From Thermoplasmata archaeon (GTDB lineage Archaea > Thermoplasmatota > Thermoplasmata > Lutacidiplasmatales > UBA184), in the NCBI GenBank assembly GCA_021817245.1, contig JAKAVQ010000002.1:78721-142720 (forward strand): DNA of 64,000 bases, written 5' to 3'. Shown here piece by piece: positions 13,792-61,584 of this stretch. Numbering within the stretch: position 1 is the first letter of the stretch; every line of letters starts with the position of its first letter. The notes below the pieces were generated by a model. That model ran no database searches and was not told the origin of the DNA. It saw nothing but the letters and a program-made list of their open reading frames with translations. The position numbers and the translations under genes are program-made.

Positions 13792-13898
13792 CCCGGCTTA
13801 GCTCAGTGGTAGAGCGGGGGACTGTAGGCGTGACTGCCGGACCACCGGCGGCCCCCGTGGAGATCCTCAGGTCGCCTGTTCGAGTCAGGCAGCCGGGA
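13792..13898 (+). tRNA. tRNA-Tyr(GTA) with a 35-nt intron at 37/38
   Basis: Acceptor CCCGGCT/AGCCGGG+A; D arm GCTCAGTGGTAGAGC; anticodon stem GGGGA/TCCTC with loop CTGTAG|A, intron ~13828-13862; TTCGAGT T loop; C1-G72 as in archaeal Tyr; TTTATA box ~26 nt upstream. Confidence 0.92.
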
Positions 13899-32865: not shown

Positions 32866-32968
32866 GTCGGAGTGGCTCAGCCCGGTAGAGCACGGGACTC
32901 ATAGCGGGACGCCGCGCGGCGTCGCGGGAGAGATCCTGGGGCCGGGGGTTCAAATCCCCCCTCCGACA
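32866..32968 (+). tRNA. tRNA-Met(CAT) with a 29-nt intron at 37/38
   Basis: Acceptor GTCGGAG/CTCCGAC+A; D arm GCTCAGCCCGGTAGAGC; stem CGGGA/TCCTG with CTCATA|A, intron ~32904-32932; T arm GGGGGTTCAAATCCCCC. Confidence 0.92.
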
Positions 32969-46252: not shown

Positions 46253-47194
46253 ATGGAGGTTCAGGCACGTCGTCGGGGCCAGAGGACCTACTACTACCTG
46301 GTGCACTCGTATCGCCAAAACGGGAACGTCCGCAAGATCGAAAGGTATCTCGGGGCGACCAAACCGCAGGAGGTCGAGTCGCTCAAAGCGGAGCTTCGGG
46401 GCGAGGTCTTCTCGGAACAGTTCGAACCCGCCCTGGCGCACTCGCGCAAGATCTACCGGGCGAACCTCGCCAAGATGCCCAGGACGATCCGTGAGAAAGA
46501 ACTGGAAACGTTCTCGACGCAGTTCACTTACGACAGTAACCGCATCGAGGGATCGAGCCTCACACTACGAGAGACCGCCCTGCTCCTCAACGACGGCGTG
46601 ACTCCCAGCAACCGTCCACTGTCAGATGTTCAGGAAGCAGTGGCGCACCAGAGAGTCTTCTTGGATGCTATCCGTCGAACGCCGGAGCTCAGCCTCGAAT
46701 CGCTCCGAGGATGGCACGGGGAGTTGTTCCGAACCACGAAGCCTTGGCTTGCGGGAAAAATCAGAAACTACAACGTCAAGATCGCAGGAAGCCGATTCGA
46801 ACCACCGACTCCCATCGAGTTGGACTCCCTGCTACAGGAATTCGTCGCTTGGCTGAAAGTGGCTTGGAAGAACCTGCACCCCGTGCTTCTTGCGGGCTTG
46901 GTCCACCTCAAGCTTGTGACAATCCACCCGTTCGGTGATGGGAACGGGCGAGTTGCTCGAATCGCGATGAACTACGTCCTCTATCGTAAGCGCTACCCTA
47001 TGATCGATATACGTTACACTCGCCGAGCGAGTTACTACAGGGCTCTCGAGCGGTCGCAGCTCCGAAAAGATGACACGGCGTTCGTACGGTGGTTCCTTCG
47101 ACGATATCTCGAGCAGAACGGCCGAACGGTACCGAAGCTGAGGCGTAGCAGCCGGGACAGCCCAGTCGCCCACAAGTTGAGCTGGGTGCATTAG
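46253..47194 (+). CDS. Fic-domain protein (class II-like)
   Basis: FTYDSNRIEGSSLTLRETALLL (SxxxEG) and catalytic HPFGDGNGRVARIAMNYVLYRK. Confidence 0.93.
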   Translation: MEVQARRRGQRTYYYLVHSYRQNGNVRKIERYLGATKPQEVESLKAELRGEVFSEQFEPALAHSRKIYRANLAKMPRTIREKELETFSTQFTYDSNRIEGSSLTLRETALLLNDGVTPSNRPLSDVQEAVAHQRVFLDAIRRTPELSLESLRGWHGELFRTTKPWLAGKIRNYNVKIAGSRFEPPTPIELDSLLQEFVAWLKVAWKNLHPVLLAGLVHLKLVTIHPFGDGNGRVARIAMNYVLYRKRYPMIDIRYTRRASYYRALERSQLRKDDTAFVRWFLRRYLEQNGRTVPKLRRSSRDSPVAHKLSWVH

Positions 47195-48392: not shown

Positions 48393-50096
48393 ATGCACCT
48401 GAATCGGTCCACAGACATTCCAGCATTCCTTGACTTTCCAAAGTACTACCTTATTGAGGGGCCGGGGGTTGCTATGCCCCCTTCCTCGGCGACTTCTCTT
48501 GCACGTCACGCGATCGAGGTCCCGCCGTTCCAGAGGGGCATCGAGTGGGGTGGGCCGGAGGTTGAAGAGCTCCTCGACACGAAATCTGCGACACTCGGGA
48601 CTGTCATCCTCGCAAATCTCGCTGGCCGTGCCCAACCGCTTCTCGTTGACGGCTTGCAGCGGTTTGCCGTCGGGACGGCCCTGCTTGTTGAACTGTACCC
48701 AGAAGTGCTTGCAGCCTCACCTCGCAATCGGATAGCTGCTGCTCACTTTGTTCGACTTCAGGCCGAGGCCGGCAACTTCCAGCCAGTCTTCCAGACCAAT
48801 TCCGATGTCTTGACGAAGCATCCCCGTCTAGCGATTAGCAGTTCGTATGGAACTCTCCTGCAGGAGGTGCGAGAACTCGTCAACCGAGAGCTTCGCACCG
48901 ACGCCAGCGACTTTGCGGGCAGGGTGCAGCGGCTCTTCCTCGATCGCCAGGTGGGGATAGATCTTTACTCGGGATTCAGCGTGTACAGTGAGCTAACCAG
49001 CACGTTCATTGACATCAACACCCAGGGTCTTGATCTTTCCCCCACCGATCTCCTTCGCGCCCAGCTGGTTGATCAAGGTTTGCAGCTGAACTGGACCGCG
49101 GCAGATATCCAAGACATGGAGAACGACTTCACGGAAACGTTCGGGCGTTCTCCTCAAACTCACATGAGAACGCTTGGCAAGTTTCTCAATAGTGCAGTCG
49201 AAGACACCACTCGGCGGACCACTATTCTATCAAATTGGCCGGGCTTGACAAAGGCAGATGTGTCCGATTTGCTCGCCTTCATCGATTCAACGATAGATGC
49301 GGCACAGTCGGGGACATACCCGTATCTCGGACAGTCGTACGCCTGCGGTCCGCAGGCATTTTCACTCGTCCTGATCCTCTACTGGTTACTCTACAAACGT
49401 GGTCGCGGGAAGGCCGACTTCGCAGGCGGAGGATTCGCGACACAGAATGATCTTCATCTTCTCCTCAGAGCATTGTACCGGCGTCTAATTGACGGGACGA
49501 TTTTCCGGATCGAGAGTGCCATCGACTGGCTTCTCGCAAACGCGGCCCGAGCGACGCCGGGAACCCTCGCAGATCAGATTGGCCAAGGAACCACGTCGGG
49601 AAGCCTCTCCGGAAGTCCTGACAGAGGCTGGCTGGAGCAGAGTCTTCGCCGAGCGGACTTAAAACGGAGCCGTCAGATCTTCAACGCTTGCCTTCTTCCG
49701 GTTCGTACGAGCGTCGGCGGACCCTTTCCAACGATGGGGTTCGGTCGTAAGGCAGGTGACTGGACTATTGATCACCTGGTGCCCCAGGCTAAGATCGCGC
49801 CGGCAAGAGCTGGCGAAGTAGAGGCGTTCCTACTACCCAATCTTGCACCACTTCCCGCGAGCGTAAACAAGTCCATTCGGGATCTGGACTGCGCAATAAA
49901 ACTCGGTCCCACAGGTCCATACATCCACTACAAGGACAAGCACCCGTACATCGAGTGGTTGGTGACTACCCAGTACCCTGCGGTTTCCCCTACCTCCGCG
50001 TTCGACGACCAATCTCATCTAGCATCTGGTTCAACCCCCGCAATCGGCGATGATCGGATCGAGGCCTTGGCGGATATCTTGGAGGATCGACTGTAG
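48393..50096 (+). CDS. DUF262-HNH protein (GmrSD-like, putative nuclease)
   Basis: VPPFQRGIEWGGPEVEELLDTKSATLGTVIL, LLVDGLQRFAVGTALL, STFIDINTQGLDLSPTDLLRAQLV, and C-terminal WTIDHLVPQAKIAPARAGEVEAFLLPNLAPLPASVNKSIRD. Confidence 0.82.
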   Translation: MHLNRSTDIPAFLDFPKYYLIEGPGVAMPPSSATSLARHAIEVPPFQRGIEWGGPEVEELLDTKSATLGTVILANLAGRAQPLLVDGLQRFAVGTALLVELYPEVLAASPRNRIAAAHFVRLQAEAGNFQPVFQTNSDVLTKHPRLAISSSYGTLLQEVRELVNRELRTDASDFAGRVQRLFLDRQVGIDLYSGFSVYSELTSTFIDINTQGLDLSPTDLLRAQLVDQGLQLNWTAADIQDMENDFTETFGRSPQTHMRTLGKFLNSAVEDTTRRTTILSNWPGLTKADVSDLLAFIDSTIDAAQSGTYPYLGQSYACGPQAFSLVLILYWLLYKRGRGKADFAGGGFATQNDLHLLLRALYRRLIDGTIFRIESAIDWLLANAARATPGTLADQIGQGTTSGSLSGSPDRGWLEQSLRRADLKRSRQIFNACLLPVRTSVGGPFPTMGFGRKAGDWTIDHLVPQAKIAPARAGEVEAFLLPNLAPLPASVNKSIRDLDCAIKLGPTGPYIHYKDKHPYIEWLVTTQYPAVSPTSAFDDQSHLASGSTPAIGDDRIEALADILEDRL

Positions 50097-50180
50097 TCGC
50101 ATGCCCAACTCAGGGCTCCGGGTGACAATGGAATCCAGGGGACACCTCTATTGTCAGGTTTCACCATTCATTGGTAGGGA

Positions 50181-51086
50181 ATGGTAGAAAACGGAAATGT
50201 AAAATCAGTTAGCGTGTCGTCCGCCGAAGGGCCCCGGACTACCAGGGGAACAGGCCCCCGACCGTTCCTGAAGTGGGCTGGCGGGAAGTCGCAAGCCTTC
50301 CAGGAACTTAGGCAGTTCTTTCCAAATCTGAAGGACGGCCAGACTTACTTCGAGCCATTTCTTGGAGGAGGGGCAGTTTACTTCGGCCTCTCCCCGAAGT
50401 CAGCCGTACTCTCGGACTTGAACAAGTCCCTCGTGTTCACTTACCAAGCGGTCAAGGATCATGTCGAGGGGCTGATTGCTGCCCTGGGAAGACTGCCACC
50501 CCCGGCTTCGGAGAAGGACTATTACACAGCACGGACTCGATTTAATCGTCTCGCCGCTCGATTGTCGACTCTAGACAGCAGCCAAATTGTCACCTTTTCC
50601 GCGCTGTTCATCTGGCTGAACCATTTGTGCTACAACGGACTCTATCGAGTGAACAAGAAGGGTGGCTTCAACGTTCCTTATGGATTCTATCGGAATCCGA
50701 CCATCTACTCGGCTGATTCGCTCAGAGTCGCCAGCGAGGCACTGCGATCTGCACGGGTTATGGCGTCTGATTACGAATCCGCGCTAGAGGGCGCCGGCCG
50801 CGGAGATCTTGCCTACCTCGATCCGCCGTATGACCCCGTGAGCGAAACGGCAAAATTCACCTCTTACACATCGAGCGGCTTCGACCTCACACAGCAGGAG
50901 CGGCTCTCCCGAGTAGTCCACGAGCTCGTAGACAGGGGATGCAAGGTTGTGCTGAGTAATTCGCCCTCAGACAGGATCAAGGAATTGTATCGTGGATACC
51001 GCTTCGAGCGGGTGGCCGTACCCCGGGCGATAAACTGCGTGGGCTCAAGGCGGTCCGCTGTCGAGGAACTCGTGGTAATTGCCTGA
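50181..51086 (+). CDS. D12-class N6-adenine DNA methyltransferase (Dam family)
   Basis: PFLKWAGGKSQAFQELRQFFP, YFEPFLGGGAVYFGL, GDLAYLDPPYDPVSETAKFTSYTSSGF. Confidence 0.94.
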   Translation: MVENGNVKSVSVSSAEGPRTTRGTGPRPFLKWAGGKSQAFQELRQFFPNLKDGQTYFEPFLGGGAVYFGLSPKSAVLSDLNKSLVFTYQAVKDHVEGLIAALGRLPPPASEKDYYTARTRFNRLAARLSTLDSSQIVTFSALFIWLNHLCYNGLYRVNKKGGFNVPYGFYRNPTIYSADSLRVASEALRSARVMASDYESALEGAGRGDLAYLDPPYDPVSETAKFTSYTSSGFDLTQQERLSRVVHELVDRGCKVVLSNSPSDRIKELYRGYRFERVAVPRAINCVGSRRSAVEELVVIA

Positions 51087-51109: not shown

Positions 51110-51661
51110 CTATTCTTCACTTGATCCGCGTAGCGTTCTGCAAACGCGGCACCAAGACTGCCGCACTGGCTTCCTGTCAATCGTGCGCAGCCCGAACCAC
51201 CCCTGGAGTTCGCCGACAAGCGCGCAATGGGGGCACTGACACGGGTTGCACCAGTCCAGCTGTTCGACGCTATGCCGAATCTGGTCGAGCAAACCGACGG
51301 CCCTTCCATATGTGGGGTCGGCGTCGAAGTCCTCGTCCTCTCTGAATTCAACGTCGGATCTTACTGACACAAGGATCTTCCTTAGGGCTGCGCCCGCCTC
51401 GAGGAGAGCGTCCTGCACTATAGCAGCGCCTTCCGCGTCGGAATCCTTGGATCCCGTGCCTGAAGCCGGCAGCAAACCCGCGAGGCGTCGCACGTAGTCC
51501 GGCGCAATCCTCTCAGGGAAGACCTTCACAACCAGGCCCTCGAGTTTCTTGGCGCTAAGTTCGTCGTCAGAAGCGAGCAGCCAGCAAGCACCTGCGGCCA
51601 ACAGCGGCTGAAATGCGCCGCGGTCCAGGCCTGACAGAAACTTGGGATCTAGTCCTGGCAT
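51110..51661 (-). CDS. Hypothetical protein with C-terminal Cys clusters (putative zinc ribbon)
   Basis: CNPCQCPHCALVGELQGWFGLRTIDRKPVRQSWCRVCRTL; alpha-helical N-terminus. Confidence 0.6.
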   Translation of the reverse strand: MPGLDPKFLSGLDRGAFQPLLAAGACWLLASDDELSAKKLEGLVVKVFPERIAPDYVRRLAGLLPASGTGSKDSDAEGAAIVQDALLEAGAALRKILVSVRSDVEFREDEDFDADPTYGRAVGLLDQIRHSVEQLDWCNPCQCPHCALVGELQGWFGLRTIDRKPVRQSWCRVCRTLRGSSEE

Positions 51662-51909: not shown

Positions 51910-52692
51910 CTAAACGGTCCCGACAGACTCAACAAATGAGTCAAGGCCAGCGCTCGCATCACGCACCCGAGCAACCTCTTCGAGGATGGATCGTACCGCA
52001 ATGGACTGATCAGTCTCGTCGGGGGGGGGATAAACGAATGCAGTTACGTCGAGGTTGCTTAGGCGACGCTCTGAGAGTGCCCTCGCGTGATCAGTTATGT
52101 CCCGGAAGCTATAGACCAAGACCTTCGCGTCGTCAACGGTCTCCATCTGGTTCAGCCCGAAAGAAAAGCATTGGAATGCGCGCATGTTATCTTGGTCCAG
52201 TACGAAGTCAAACGTGTAGTAACTCTTGTTACCCGCGAATCTTCTCTGAGATATGACCGGGACATGATACCTCTCAAAAGCGCGCCTGACGCGGGCGACC
52301 ACGCTCCTCCTGCGGACAACCTTCGACTCTCGCTTTCCTCTTTGATCTATTGAAACAAATCTCTGGTACAGGCTAGCCAATTCGTGATCTATGTCGCTTG
52401 CGGTCGTAGAAGCTGGCTCGCTCACCTGAATCGTTTGAGATTGTGACTTGGAAAGGGTGTCGAGAAATCCACGGTCGCGATTAGGGGTACCCGAATACTC
52501 TTCGAACCCATCGACTATTCTTTGGACTGAGTCAACATCAAGGGTCTCGTCTGAATAGGTCTTTAGGCGGGGAATGCCCTCGGTGAATCTGACCCGGAGC
52601 TTGCCGGATTCGGGATCGTGAAGCATCACACCAATATTCACTGGTTCGTAACGGACAAGGTCGGGGACGACCTTTACCACCACGTACCTCAT
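51910..52692 (-). CDS. DUF3037-family protein
   Basis: MRYVVVKVVPDLVRYEPVNIGVMLHDPESGKLRVRFTEGIPRLK... located directly downstream of a HipA-like kinase. Confidence 0.75.
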   Translation of the reverse strand: MRYVVVKVVPDLVRYEPVNIGVMLHDPESGKLRVRFTEGIPRLKTYSDETLDVDSVQRIVDGFEEYSGTPNRDRGFLDTLSKSQSQTIQVSEPASTTASDIDHELASLYQRFVSIDQRGKRESKVVRRRSVVARVRRAFERYHVPVISQRRFAGNKSYYTFDFVLDQDNMRAFQCFSFGLNQMETVDDAKVLVYSFRDITDHARALSERRLSNLDVTAFVYPPPDETDQSIAVRSILEEVARVRDASAGLDSFVESVGTV

Positions 52693-52705
52693 CGGACTTC
52701 TCTCT

Positions 52706-53500
52706 TCAGGGAGGGGGCCTTTCGGGGTTAAGCGCAAACGCCTGAAGAGCACTTCGTACTAGTGCCTTCCTGTCCTCAAGAAACCTGACCGCTGCGGCTC
52801 TCTCGACTTGGTCTTCGAGCCATGCAATCGGAATGTCGTCCACTATTCCTCCCGGAGCCTCCGCAGGCATGGCTTCCAAGCTGTCGCAAAAGGGCCCGAA
52901 TTCCTCCAACGACCAGACACACCGATTCAAGAAGTCGAAACGTGGCACCAAGTCTTTGGATGCTGCGACAGCTGCTAGATTGGCAGAGTGCCACGACGGT
53001 CCAGTCAGGATGAATCCGTTGTCTATCATGAGCATTCGATACCTTGGTCCCTCTGCGGTCTCGACTTTGCTGATTAGAAGATTGCCGCCGCCACGATCCA
53101 TGTTCCTGACCCAATTGTCGAACCCGAGGATCTTCGCGACCTCCTCACGATTCGCAATATCCCAGGGCTTGATTCCGACTGAAGCGGGTTCAGTAAAGTC
53201 GAAGGCAGACGTAACCTGCCTAGTGCCAAAGTAACTCCCGGGCTGGATACCACGACTGGTCAACCCGGCCGAATCTCGAATGAACAGCTCAGTGAGCGTT
53301 ACTATCGCAGCCTCAGCAGTCGGCAAGTTCAGGCGGTTGCAAATTTCCGCTCCCAGCCCTTCGTTAAAGAGGGCTCGAGATCCATGTTCTGGAAACTTCA
53401 CCCAATACTCGCTCCGGTCGTCGCAAAGCATTCTGTGGGGCCGGGATCCGCCCTTCCCCGGAGTGAAGCCATAGTCGCGGACTGCTGTAACGGTCCTCAA
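52706..53500 (-). CDS. HipA-like kinase-domain protein (HipA_2 type)
   Basis: EYWVKFPEHGSRALFNEGLGAEICNRLNLPTAEAAIVTL...FDNWVRNMDRGGGNLLISKVETAEGPRYRMLMIDNGFILTG (catalytic N...D...GNLL...IDNG layout). Confidence 0.82.
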   Translation of the reverse strand: MRTVTAVRDYGFTPGKGGSRPHRMLCDDRSEYWVKFPEHGSRALFNEGLGAEICNRLNLPTAEAAIVTLTELFIRDSAGLTSRGIQPGSYFGTRQVTSAFDFTEPASVGIKPWDIANREEVAKILGFDNWVRNMDRGGGNLLISKVETAEGPRYRMLMIDNGFILTGPSWHSANLAAVAASKDLVPRFDFLNRCVWSLEEFGPFCDSLEAMPAEAPGGIVDDIPIAWLEDQVERAAAVRFLEDRKALVRSALQAFALNPERPPP

Positions 53501-53720
53501 ACGTCACGACCACCCTCTCCGGATGACGACCTGGGCTTGAACGTCGCGGCCGGACACTGATAGAAGAAACTCCAAGGCGATGAGCGAAGTCCTAAGTCAC
53601 CATTGAAGGGTTGTTGTAACGGTCCCTTCACCGATATCGGCCGAGGAGCGAGGGCCCGAACTCCGGCCACGGCCCCCGCTCTGGCGCTGGCCGAATTTCG
53701 GAATGGGATTCGAACCCCCG

Positions 53721-53745
53721 GGGGGTACAAATACTCCCTCCGACA
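53721..53745 (+). repeat. Degenerate copy of the tRNA-Met T-arm/acceptor 3' end (possible att remnant)
   Basis: GGGGGTACAAATACTCCCTCCGACA aligns to tRNA-Met 32944-32968 GGGGGTTCAAATCCCCCCTCCGACA at 22/25 positions. Confidence 0.5.
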
Positions 53746-53868
53746 CTCGGTACGAACGCCCGAGGACATCCCGGCCCGCGAGTGGTGGGTGCAAACAGGA
53801 TTAGGCATTCTGCCGCTCATTGTGGCTCACCTTCGGGCATATGACCCCGCTTCGGCTCGCGACTACGT

Positions 53869-54939
53869 CTAGGAAAAGCGTCGACTGTAGACGTCAGCTA
53901 GGAAGCGGGATCTCAAGCGGTAGCGTCGACCCCGCCTCTCTCCGATTTGCTCCAAGACACCGGCTTTGCTAAGCTCATCCAGCGCCGACCAAAGCGCCGG
54001 TTGGCTGTACCCCTTTGGATTCGGATAGTCGCTCCTTGAGAACCAAGCGCCGGTTCCCTGCAGCACCCAACGAAGCAGAGTGCGTGTGCTTTCCCGGGAG
54101 AACTTGGAGACAAAAGGTCCGAGGTTTGCCTGCCTTGCGGCCGCCTTGTAGGCTGCCTGCGCCTCACCAGCGTAATATCGTGCCCAATGGCCGTAATCAG
54201 TCCCCGCGTTCGTGGTGCCGAGGTACTCGTAATAGTGATCGCTAGTCCGGAAGAAACGGGTGTCGAGCGGGATTAGGGCAGCCTTCCGAAGACCGAGCTT
54301 CACTAACACGGCGATGTTCAGTAGACGGCCTAGTCTTCCGTTTCCGTCCATGAAGGGATGAATCGCTTCGAACTCAGCGAAGAATAGAGAGGCAGTGATT
54401 GGGGCGGGTAGCGCGAACCTTGCCTGGTCCAACCACTCGAGCAACCTCTCGAGCTCTCTCTCAGTTCGTTCTGGTGGGGTGGGTGTGAATCTGAGGGATC
54501 CGCTTCCGACATTGACAATGTAGTTCTGTTCAGGTTTCAGAACCCCCACCCAATCGGGGCGTATCACATCCTTGAACAACGCTCTGTGAGTGTCGAGAAG
54601 CCCCTGGACCGTTAAGGGTGGACCCTTCCCTCGTGAGAGGTCGCCATAAGCATTCGCTAGCCTGAGAACCCCTGTTTCCGACGGGGACTCAGGTTTTCTG
54701 CCCTCCAGTACCTGACGCGCTTTGTCAAGTTCGACTGTCTCCCCTTCGAGTCTGAAGCTACTTACTGCGTTCCTGAGTCTGGCCATCCCGAGCAATATCT
54801 GGTGGAGTTGCGGTGAGAGCAGGCGGGTTTCTAGTATCCCATCTAATCGGATGCATTCCACCGCAGGTGCCCCGATATCGTCCCCCACGTGAATGCTCGG
54901 AGAGAAACCGCCAGTCGTGTCCCTCTTCTCAAGCGGCAC
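53869..54939 (-). CDS. Fic-domain protein with C-terminal winged-helix-like region (class II-like)
   Basis: SSFRLEGETVELDKARQVL (SxxxEG) and HPFMDGNGRLGRLLNIAVLV; C-terminus YSQPALWSALDELSKAGVLEQIGERRGRRYRL. Confidence 0.93.
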   Translation of the reverse strand: MPLEKRDTTGGFSPSIHVGDDIGAPAVECIRLDGILETRLLSPQLHQILLGMARLRNAVSSFRLEGETVELDKARQVLEGRKPESPSETGVLRLANAYGDLSRGKGPPLTVQGLLDTHRALFKDVIRPDWVGVLKPEQNYIVNVGSGSLRFTPTPPERTERELERLLEWLDQARFALPAPITASLFFAEFEAIHPFMDGNGRLGRLLNIAVLVKLGLRKAALIPLDTRFFRTSDHYYEYLGTTNAGTDYGHWARYYAGEAQAAYKAAARQANLGPFVSKFSRESTRTLLRWVLQGTGAWFSRSDYPNPKGYSQPALWSALDELSKAGVLEQIGERRGRRYRLRSRFLADVYSRRFS

Positions 54940-55075: not shown

Positions 55076-56275
55076 TTGCAACTAACGAGTGACATCGACG
55101 AAGGTGAGGTGCAACGGGATTGCGGACAACTCGCGAAGACGCACCCGATCGCATCTGATTTCATCGTCCGCCGACCCGGATACGACTATCCATCCTGTGG
55201 GGGGATGGCCCGAGGCGGAATGCCGAACGCTCCCTCGGGTCGCCCCCTATCCTGGGATGGACCCCCTCGAAGAAGCCCGATTCACCCTTCGGCTCGAGCC
55301 TCCGCCCTACCTGAAAAGGGGTCGTCTGCGGGGGCACGAGCTGGTACGGTACACCAGTGGGAAGCTCAAGTTGCCGCCTTTCTGAACGACAAGCGTTCCA
55401 CGGATGACGTGGGAGAGGCGTGGCTTTCGCGAATGCGCTGGGAACTCTGCAGGCTCCCCAGTCTGCTGCGTCGAGTGGGGCAGCCGGGCAGCGTGCGTTC
55501 TCCAAAGGACGTGACCGAAGACAGTCTCCGCGCGCTTCGGGCGGGGCTCCCGTGGGAGACGCCGACCTTTGCCGTTCACTTTCAGGCGCTGAGGCAGTTC
55601 CTTCGATGGGGAGGAAATCCGATAGCCGGTGAGCGTCCTTTGTGGGCGCTTCCAAGGAGCATCCCGGTCCACCGGCGGTGGGTAACCAAGGCGCAACTTG
55701 TATCGTTGTACCGTGCCGCACGTGGGGTGGAGCGTGTGATCGTCGCTCTCGAGGGCCTGAGCGGACTTAGGAGGGTCGAAGTCCTGAGACTTCGTGTCAA
55801 GGATGTCCTCGTCAAGGAGGAGTGCCTCCGCATTCTCGGAAAAGGGCGACGCGGGGGGAAGTGGCGGATCATCCCCTTGCGCGGAGAGGTGTTCCGTGTG
55901 CTGACGACATGGATCCGAAACAAACGAGACGATGACAAGGTGGTGTCACTGTCCAAATCCGGAGCCGACGCGGCTCTCCAGCGGGCGGTTCGCCGGGCCG
56001 GACTTACCCGTGACGGCGTCAAGGTATCGCACCATGATCTTCGGAGGACGTTCGGCCGTCTCGCCAACGCGTCGGGGATGAGCCTGGTTTCCCTTCAAGG
56101 GCTCTACGGCCATGCGTCGCCGACACTCTCATCTCACTACATCGGACTCGACTTTGACGAGCTCAAGGCCGCCCTCGCAAGGTTAGATTCCTTTCTGGGG
56201 CCGGTCGCTGAATCCCGCCCTCCGGAACGGGCCGTGTCCCGCCCCAGGACGCGCCTCGGCCCGCCGCGGCGGTGA
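55076..56275 (+). CDS. Tyrosine recombinase/integrase
   Basis: ALEGLSGLRRVEVLRLRVKDV...VSHHDLRRTFGRLANASGMSLVSLQGLYGHASPTLSSHYIG (R...HxxR...Y); true start may be downstream of 55076. Confidence 0.88.
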   Translation: MQLTSDIDEGEVQRDCGQLAKTHPIASDFIVRRPGYDYPSCGGMARGGMPNAPSGRPLSWDGPPRRSPIHPSARASALPEKGSSAGARAGTVHQWEAQVAAFLNDKRSTDDVGEAWLSRMRWELCRLPSLLRRVGQPGSVRSPKDVTEDSLRALRAGLPWETPTFAVHFQALRQFLRWGGNPIAGERPLWALPRSIPVHRRWVTKAQLVSLYRAARGVERVIVALEGLSGLRRVEVLRLRVKDVLVKEECLRILGKGRRGGKWRIIPLRGEVFRVLTTWIRNKRDDDKVVSLSKSGADAALQRAVRRAGLTRDGVKVSHHDLRRTFGRLANASGMSLVSLQGLYGHASPTLSSHYIGLDFDELKAALARLDSFLGPVAESRPPERAVSRPRTRLGPPRR

Positions 56276-57944: not shown

Positions 57945-58256
57945 TCAGCTGGGGAAAGTCTCCTGGGTCAGCGCGGAATAGGCGTCGCGCCGCGCGACGA
58001 TCTCGTCCGGATGGGCATGATACGTCGGATCGTTGGTCGCGATCAACCGCATCGCGTTCAGGGCCGCCTGCTGGGCCCAGTTCCGGAGGTGTTCCATGGA
58101 ATGGAAGTAGAACCCCCGCAGATTCTCGGGCAGGGCCGCCGGGTAGCCCACCACGCGAACCGCATGGCTACCCTTCGCGACCGGTCCGCTGCACCAGGGG
58201 CACACGAGACCATCTTCCGTGACCGTGACCGTTTCGAGGGTGAACGGGGACTTCAT
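57945..58256 (-). CDS. Small hypothetical protein with CxxC
   Basis: LVCPWCSGPVAKGSHAVRVVGYPAALPENLRGFYFHSMEHLRNWAQQAALNAMRLI. Confidence 0.5.
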   Translation of the reverse strand: MKSPFTLETVTVTEDGLVCPWCSGPVAKGSHAVRVVGYPAALPENLRGFYFHSMEHLRNWAQQAALNAMRLIATNDPTYHAHPDEIVARRDAYSALTQETFPS

Positions 58257-58743
58257 GGCGGTGGCAAGGGGTCGCCCATGCTTCAGATTTGCCCTGGGCA
58301 GCTCGAAACCACCGACCGGCCCCAAGGGCTTGCTTCGGTGCGGTGGTCGGGTCCGGTTCGGCGGATGCCGCCCACTGGTTCAGCGTCCGTTGCTCCCGTC
58401 GGCGCGAGCGTGCTCCTGCCTCAGCCGGCGGGACGGGCGGCGCGGCGAGCCGGACGAAGCGGAAGAACCACCGACTGCGTGGAGCGCGAGGGTTTTCCGA
58501 AGGGCCGCTCGAAATGGGGGACGGGGCAGGAGAGGGTTTACCGCATTCGTCGGCTGTCCGGCGGGGGCCGGATCCCGCCCCAGCGCGAAGAGGTCCGCCC
58601 GGGGCGAGCCGGACGCGCTTCGACGGAAGGTCGGTGTTCCTGCGGGGTGGCGGGAGAGCATCCGGTTTGAAGCGCCCTCGGTCCGTGGTGGCACCTCCAA
58701 CGGAGGCAGGGGCGATGCGTTCGTAGCACCGACTTGGGGAGCC

Positions 58744-59739
58744 ATGATAAGAGCGAGCCGTTTCCGGTGGCCGATGCGGGTCCCTCTCCGAGTGCGGAAG
58801 TGGCTCACGGGACCGAACTCCGACCCGAGCGTCCGGGCCCGGTTCTTGCTCGAAGTCGAGGGGCGGCCCCCGCAGGATCCCCGCGTGCGTGCTGCCGTCC
58901 GAGCGATCGGCCGGAAAGGGTGGGCCGCCTCGCTCCTCGACTTCCAGTGGCCGGACGGACACTGGGTCACTCCCGGCACTTCGGACGGGGAACTGTACCG
59001 CCCGAAGTACATCGTCACCAACTGGCTCGCGATCGTCCTGGCCGACCTGGGGATGACGCGGAAGGACCCCCGCATCCGCCGGACGGCCCGGCTCATTCTC
59101 GACCGATGGAGTCGGAAGGGGAGGGACCTCAGCGGAGCGACCGGGGAGGTCTGCGTCACCGGGAACGCCGTGCGGACCCTGATCCGGTTCGGGTATCTCG
59201 ACCACCCGGCGGTGCAGCGCTCGATCGCTTGGATCGTTCGGACCCAGAAACCGGACGGGGGATGGCACTGCTTTCGTTCGCGCACCGGGACCCTCGACGG
59301 CTGGGAGGGGCTGGCCGCGCTCGCGGAGATTCCCGAGGGATCTCGAAACGACTCGATCCGCCGGTCGATCGAACGAGGCGCGGAATTCTACCTCAGTCGC
59401 CACCTGATGGACGAAGGCGCGGTCCGCTACCCGCCATGGTTCCGGATCCACTACCCGAACCACTACTTTTACGACGTGCTCGTCGGCCTGCGGATCCTGA
59501 CACGGTTGGGCTACGGCTCGGACCCCCGTCTCGCCCCGGCGATCCGCTGGCTCCGAAGCAAGCGAGGCCGGGATGGGACCTGGTCGCTCGACGCCGCGCT
59601 TCCGGATCTCGATCCCAAGCTCGCGGGATACCAGTACAACGCCGTCATGTTTCCCCTGATGCTCGAGCCCCTGCACGAACCCAGCCAGTGGGCGACCGTG
59701 GAGGCGCTGAGCGTCCTCGCGCGGGTCGACGACGCCTGA
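58744..59739 (+). CDS. Terpenoid cyclase/prenyltransferase alpha-alpha toroid protein
   Basis: SLLDFQWPDGHWVTPG...IAWIVRTQKPDGGWHCFRSRTGTLDGWEGLAAL...IRWLRSKRGRDGTWSLDA (QW-like repeats). Confidence 0.75.
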   Translation: MIRASRFRWPMRVPLRVRKWLTGPNSDPSVRARFLLEVEGRPPQDPRVRAAVRAIGRKGWAASLLDFQWPDGHWVTPGTSDGELYRPKYIVTNWLAIVLADLGMTRKDPRIRRTARLILDRWSRKGRDLSGATGEVCVTGNAVRTLIRFGYLDHPAVQRSIAWIVRTQKPDGGWHCFRSRTGTLDGWEGLAALAEIPEGSRNDSIRRSIERGAEFYLSRHLMDEGAVRYPPWFRIHYPNHYFYDVLVGLRILTRLGYGSDPRLAPAIRWLRSKRGRDGTWSLDAALPDLDPKLAGYQYNAVMFPLMLEPLHEPSQWATVEALSVLARVDDA

Positions 59740-61442: not shown

Positions 61443-61584
61443 GCCCTCGTTCACGCGCGGCGACCGCGAGGAGCGCGCCGCCCGGTTCCCGGGCACGCTA
61501 CCGATCCCCGCGGGGAACCGGCCCGCGCTCGTCCCCTTCCCTGAACCCCGACGACACTTTAACCGGCCGCGACTTCCGTGCGGT

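Follow-up and report, generated by a model that had tools for sequence, protein, structure and literature searches.

We begin by considering two genes that stand side by side in an archaeal genome, one for a DUF262-HNH nuclease and the other for a Dam-type adenine methyltransferase (MTase), in a window of 64,000 nucleotides (the whole stretch of DNA analysed here). A sequence-only reading of this stretch saw in the pairing a different logic, either self-protection or the sensing of m6A, and a strong candidate for an undescribed defence module. The question that the locus raises is "do the two genes form a dedicated pair, or do they belong to separate histories?"

The locus and its neighbours

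The two genes lie on the same strand (Table 1) and exactly 84 nt separate the stop of the nuclease from the start of the MTase; the coordinates, strands and gap of the sequence-only reading are exact. With this gap and the shared direction, co-transcription of the two genes is possible. The island that holds them, described earlier as low in GC, is indeed so: its GC content is about 56% against 64-75% in the flanks and 65-75% in the genome, and GC3 is 0.60-0.72 for the island genes, most of them at 0.60-0.67, against 0.78-0.86 for the flanking genes. The GATC count of the island shows no depletion. According to Pfam and PADLOC, the neighbours of the pair are defence-like, comprising two Fic genes, a HipA_2/DUF3037 pair and a tyrosine integrase. 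The Fic genes bracket the unique part of the island and both have relatives in the genus, while the HipA_2 kinase-like gene overlaps the DUF3037 gene, the two matching the PADLOC candidate PDC-M66A/B. Convergent with the MTase is a gene for a 183-aa protein with a zinc-ribbon-like Cys pattern in its C-terminal part and no Pfam match.

We find no direct (att-like) repeats bounding the island, and the element boundaries are not located. A sequence at 53.7 kb that is shared with relatives is rejected as an element end, as it resembles a dispersed palindrome and no tRNA is found there. This short, palindromic, GC-rich sequence is GAACCCCCGGGGGGTTC-like; many genomes in the genus carry copies of it at 80-90% identity, and it looks like a dispersed repeat. 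Elsewhere in the window, two tRNA genes are matched by Rfam and missed by ARAGORN; their length suggests introns.

Table 1. Positions of the features discussed, in window coordinates unless another locus is named.
Feature	Position	Strand	Evidence or remark
DUF262 (GmrSD_N)-HNH protein, 567 aa	48393..50096	+	PF03235 40.6 bits; Foldseek DndI 9jfl, BrxU 7p9m, SspE 7drs
VDGLQRF, NTPase signature (DGQQR canonical; Q to L here)	48645..48665	+	motif from PMC4619093
HNH active-site segment D460 H461 ... N483 ... N492	49770..49874	+	alignments, model; GmrD D113 H114 N169 N178 equivalent
Dam/DpnM-type D12 adenine-N6 MTase, 301 aa, predicted GATC	50181..51086	+	PF02086, TIGR00571, M.DpnII 2dpm
Fic-family gene	46253-47194	+	
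183-aa protein, zinc-ribbon-like Cys pattern	51110-51661	-	
HipA_2 kinase-like and DUF3037 genes	51910-53500	-	PADLOC PDC-M66A/B
Palindromic GC-rich sequence	53690-53773		
Fic-family gene	53869-54939	-	
Tyrosine integrase	55076-56275		Pfam
506-aa protein with squalene-hopene cyclase C-terminal domain	58219-59739	+	
tRNA gene	13792-13898	+	Rfam
tRNA gene	32866-32968	+	Rfam
DUF262-HNH, Dam MTase, DUF6997 REase, consecutive	L032 8430-12720 (G044)		
HNH_2/Dam/N6_N4 MTase/DpnII locus, same genus	L079 3225-11369 and L193 5274-13079		
Second Dam MTase with DUF6996/6997 type II REase, same genome	L039, G000:C6 near 120.2 kb		
DndB-like gene (PF14072), gene with HNH-like segment, closest DUF262 relative (Metabacillus prophage)	L058 5100-9788		
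DUF262 then PIN_8-like gene, Rhizobium and Rhodococcus plasmids	L041 4995-7524, L185 4001-6526		

The DUF262-HNH nuclease

The DUF262-like motifs reported for the first protein are present, with PPFQRG at residues 44-49, VDGLQRF at 85-91 and FIDINTQG at 205-212, and the GmrSD_N profile (PF03235) matches with 40.6 bits, above the curated Pfam cutoff of 33.2. The NTPase signature departs from the strict DGQQR form: it reads DGLQR, in which D, G, the second Q and R are retained. The same change from Q to L is present in the nearest relative, a protein of Metabacillus, and Q is usual at this position in the other DUF262 proteins of the phylum, three of which have DGRQR or DGKQR. We file the nuclease as a diverged DUF262-HNH member and, because of the altered motif, as no more than a putative GmrSD protein in the strict sense.

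The C-terminal part contains DHLVPQ at 460-465 and NLAPLPASVNKS at 483-494. Among the profiles proposed for the two proteins in the sequence-only reading, PF03235 and PF02086 are matched and PF07510 (DUF1524/GmrSD_C) is not, though the motifs of the nuclease align and the model has a strand-strand-helix arrangement there. The D/E-H-N-N residues of an HNH active site are intact as D460, H461, N483 and N492, and their GmrD counterparts, D113, H114, N169 and N178, were predicted to be essential by Machnicka et al. (PMC4619093). Across an alignment of nine DUF262 proteins H461, P464, N483, N492 and K503 are invariant; in an alignment of 32 proteins N492 and K503 are invariant and H461 and N483 are conserved in at least 90%. 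The first AlphaFold2 model is poor (pLDDT 53) and the use of the 32-sequence alignment brings the mean to 66, with the HNH region (strand 457-461, strand 484-488, helix 489-495) at a pLDDT of about 73-82. From these alignments and the model, a C-terminal HNH domain, as the segment had been read before, is credible despite the missing PF07510 match.

The top solved structures found by Foldseek are DndI (9jfl; first model, E 2e-5, probability 1.00), SspE (7drs; 1.00) and BrxU (7p9m; 0.99). The TM-scores of the nuclease model against the three are low, 0.2-0.34, so that these matches back the domain assembly and not the details. The PADLOC profile HEC-06 gives a weak 15 bits (226 for the Rhizobium DUF262 protein). 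The best reading of the protein is a diverged, BrxU/DndI/SspE-like HNH nuclease with a predicted NTP gate. Such a protein would probably act as a stand-alone effector of the GmrSD/BrxU/DndI/SspE kind, whose N-terminal ParB-like domain may bind and hydrolyse NTP and inspect DNA for a chemical modification; this step would gate the C-terminal HNH domain, which would then nick or cut invading, wrongly marked DNA.

The relatives of the nuclease are few. Queries with the protein alone return none from plasmids, phages, viral contigs or genome contigs, and there are none within the genus or among 389 further genomes of the phylum to which the window belongs. The scans of genome contigs use short peptide patterns, which are limited in sensitivity and not exhaustive, so that pairs may be missed. 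The sole full-length relative that a motif- and alignment-based scan locates is a prophage protein of Metabacillus fastidiosus (L044/L058) with 33% identity over residues 1-560 (E 3e-91), and a profile built from this protein and the nuclease finds no further member in 398 other Bacillota genomes. Like the nuclease in the window, the Metabacillus protein has DGLQRF and DHL(V/I)P motifs; unlike it, the protein is in a prophage, has a DndB-like gene nearby and lacks a D12 MTase within +/-8 kb. Around it Pfam identifies NOV_C, RelA/SpoT-like and DndB-like genes, and a reading of the sequences adds MazG-like and terminase genes and a gene with an HNH-like segment. The DndB-like gene, the gene with the HNH-like segment and the DUF262 gene cluster right before the terminase genes.

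The Dam-type methyltransferase

The second gene, which had been called a complete D12 MTase, matches MethyltransfD12 (PF02086) with 188.8 bits and Dam (TIGR00571) with 253 bits, and its top PDB match is M.DpnII (2dpm, E 1.9e-55). The motifs FEPFLGGGAV (57-66), NGLYRVN (152-158) and DPPY (214-217) are all intact. Also intact is the NGLYR/FNVPYG segment, which by comparison with EcoDam we take to be the hairpin that contacts GATC, and the enzyme is predicted to methylate the adenine in GATC.

Where does this MTase come from? Its nearest kin, at 54-58% identity, come from G842 (58%) and G024 (55%), both genomes of its own genus, and it clusters with them at a clade support of 1.00. The two genomes share a layout of HNH_2 nuclease (-), Dam MTase (+), N6_N4 MTase (-) and DpnII REase (+), and between them the HNH_2 proteins are 60% and the second MTases 70% identical. 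Downstream of this locus there is an SduA_C (Shedu) gene in G024 and a gene for an HSP90-like ATPase in G842. The partners are absent from the window: the second MTase and HNH_2 proteins of the two genomes have no convincing match in it, and four REase queries (tblastn), run against the window, have no significant match near the MTase. The single R-query match in the window, at 61471 (E 0.001), lies 10 kb away from the MTase and does not fall in the REase core; a decayed REase at the locus is rejected, as tblastn reveals no remnant beside the MTase. Since the MTase belongs to a clade of DpnII-linked enzymes and these partners are missing, it is best read, on phylogeny and gene content, as an orphan DpnII-type MTase separated from its R-M locus. 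It would stem from an R-M lineage that circulates within the genus, with the REase and the second MTase since gone, and would probably shield GATC from GATC-cutting enzymes, possibly including a type II system elsewhere in the genome.

That a type II system is present elsewhere brings in an anti-restriction explanation, in which the MTase of a mobile element methylates GATC in advance and the element evades a resident Dam and type II REase. On contig C6 of the same genome a second Dam MTase, 47% identical, adjoins a DUF6996/6997 type II REase, PADLOC lists strong matches to orphan-MTase profiles, and the island carries the tyrosine integrase. The explanation is nevertheless quite improbable, since no element boundaries or att-like repeats are found, the cutting of GATC by the C6 DUF6997 REase is presumed, and the DUF262 gene is left unexplained.

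Is the pairing recurrent?

A dedicated pair is expected to be met again in other genomes, and three samples bear on this. Among 243 genomes of the window's phylum, two of the 37 DUF262 matches adjoin a D12 gene, namely that in the window and that in G044, which are not closely related pairs. An intersection made by eye over 150 Bacillota genomes, with 63 DUF262 and about 100 D12 matches, finds none of the two families less than 10 kb apart on one contig. In viral DUF262 loci, D12 is a co-directional neighbour in 0 of 89 and present in two; the proximity count of MTase motifs in viral loci is approximate. With adjacency rare or absent in all three samples, and the Metabacillus relative without D12, a conserved DUF262-D12 module is rejected, and the undescribed module of the sequence-only reading finds no homologous pair to stand on.

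The locus in G044, another genome of the class, deserves attention of its own. A DUF262-HNH gene is followed after 48 nt by a Dam MTase and then directly by a gene for a DUF6996/6997/7226 protein, a type II REase by its PADLOC score, and the order and orientation of the pair are like those in the window. The nucleases have only short, weak matches (E 9e-5 and 6e-3) and the MTases, 37% identical, fall in separate clades; common descent of the two pairs is rejected on these grounds. If the resemblance is meaningful, the comparison of the proteins suggests convergence rather than inheritance. Neighbourhoods of DUF262 and R-M-like genes are also found on plasmids of Paracoccus, Halobaculum, Rhodococcus and Rhizobium. 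The Rhizobium order is D12, DpnII family REase, DUF262 and PIN; as a homologous precedent this operon is rejected, because its D12 is of another subfamily and DUF262-PIN is kept in a relative of 50% identity. A DUF262 gene followed by a PIN_8-like gene recurs on the Rhizobium and Rhodococcus plasmids.

Could the window hold a remnant or variant R-M system, in which the DpnII-type REase of the MTase is gone and the DUF262-HNH protein has taken over the restriction of unmethylated GATC, or works as an accessory nuclease? The gene orders in G044 and on the Rhizobium plasmid are in its favour, as is the HNH_2 nuclease next to the MTase in both G842 and G024. Against it, the pairs in the window and in G044 do not descend from a common pair, no REase remnant lies beside the MTase, and we know of no sequence-specific DUF262 restriction enzyme; we give this explanation little credence.

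The main rival is a functional pair, where the MTase places m6A on host GATC, the DUF262 domain reads the mark and the HNH domain attacks unmarked DNA. The mark would either license the nuclease, as phosphorothioate does for SspE, or release it from self DNA, as in DndI. DndI and SspE, which are among the top fold matches, read a host-made phosphorothioate mark to tell self from foreign DNA (PMC11662687, PMC13251355). DndC (TIGR03183), a phosphorothioation gene, has no match in this genome, which is 92.9% complete; from this DndC search a sulfur mark is unlikely and the sensing of phosphorothioate by the nuclease is rejected, and any self-mark in use would most obviously be m6A. The close, co-directional arrangement and the identical order in G044 add to this rival. 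On the other side are the Metabacillus protein, the one full-length relative found, which has no D12 neighbour, the rarity of the adjacency, and the clade of the MTase, which operates in DpnII-type R-M loci without DUF262; we consider the functional pair unlikely. A more specific form of it, drawn by analogy, is a system of two genes whose DndI/SspE-like effector reads the GATC m6A of the neighbouring MTase in place of the phosphorothioate self-mark, with G044 as an independent second assembly, and this we hold to be rather doubtful.

The reading that we favour, with moderate confidence, is that the two defence genes were acquired separately and ended up as neighbours in a defence island gained by horizontal transfer. 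The MTase has its kin in a genus-level DpnII-type clade and no relative of the DUF262 gene is found in the genus, which indicates different histories for the two. There are points against this reading as well: the genes are close and co-directional, G044 has a similar arrangement, DndI and SspE act together with a DNA-modification module of the host (PMC11662687, PMC13251355), and a pattern scan of limited sensitivity may overlook pairs. If the two genes are independent, the locus is an example of how defence islands juxtapose unrelated restriction genes, and it adds to the GmrSD/BrxU/DndI/SspE set a very diverged DUF262-HNH subfamily, with the DGLQR variant and one other full-length member found. 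In the coupled case, DUF262 effectors would be able to read m6A, besides phosphorothioate, as a mark of self.

Comparison with known systems

With the type IV BrxU/GmrSD enzymes (DUF262 and DUF1524), the nuclease shares the domain order, a similar length (567 aa against 557-580), FxxxN and the D-H-N-N residues of the HNH domain, and the Foldseek match to 7p9m; it differs in having DGLQR for DGQQR, in not reaching PF07510 and in its MTase neighbour. With DndI (DndBCDE-DndI) and SspE (SspBCD-SspE) it shares the make-up of a DUF262-HNH effector and the matches to 9jfl and 7drs. Those effectors partner a DNA-modification module, whereas the adjacent modifier here is an adenine MTase. The MTase resembles that of DpnII-type R-M (M.DpnII/DpnM) in its match to 2dpm and in its same-genus kin, which adjoin a DpnII REase, but the window locus has neither the REase nor the second MTase.

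That GmrSD-type proteins usually stand alone, as the sequence-only reading stated, holds for many of them. Yet DUF262 genes have also been described next to R-M loci, such as RloF in Campylobacter, and type I R-M domains are enriched around GmrSD (PMC4619093). Like the gene in the window, the RloF-type genes have an adenine MTase gene adjacent (PMC4619093); those cases are mainly type I (N6_Mtase) loci, whereas the window has a D12 MTase without an REase. DUF262 next to R-M is already known, and a neighbouring MTase alone does not amount to a new logic.
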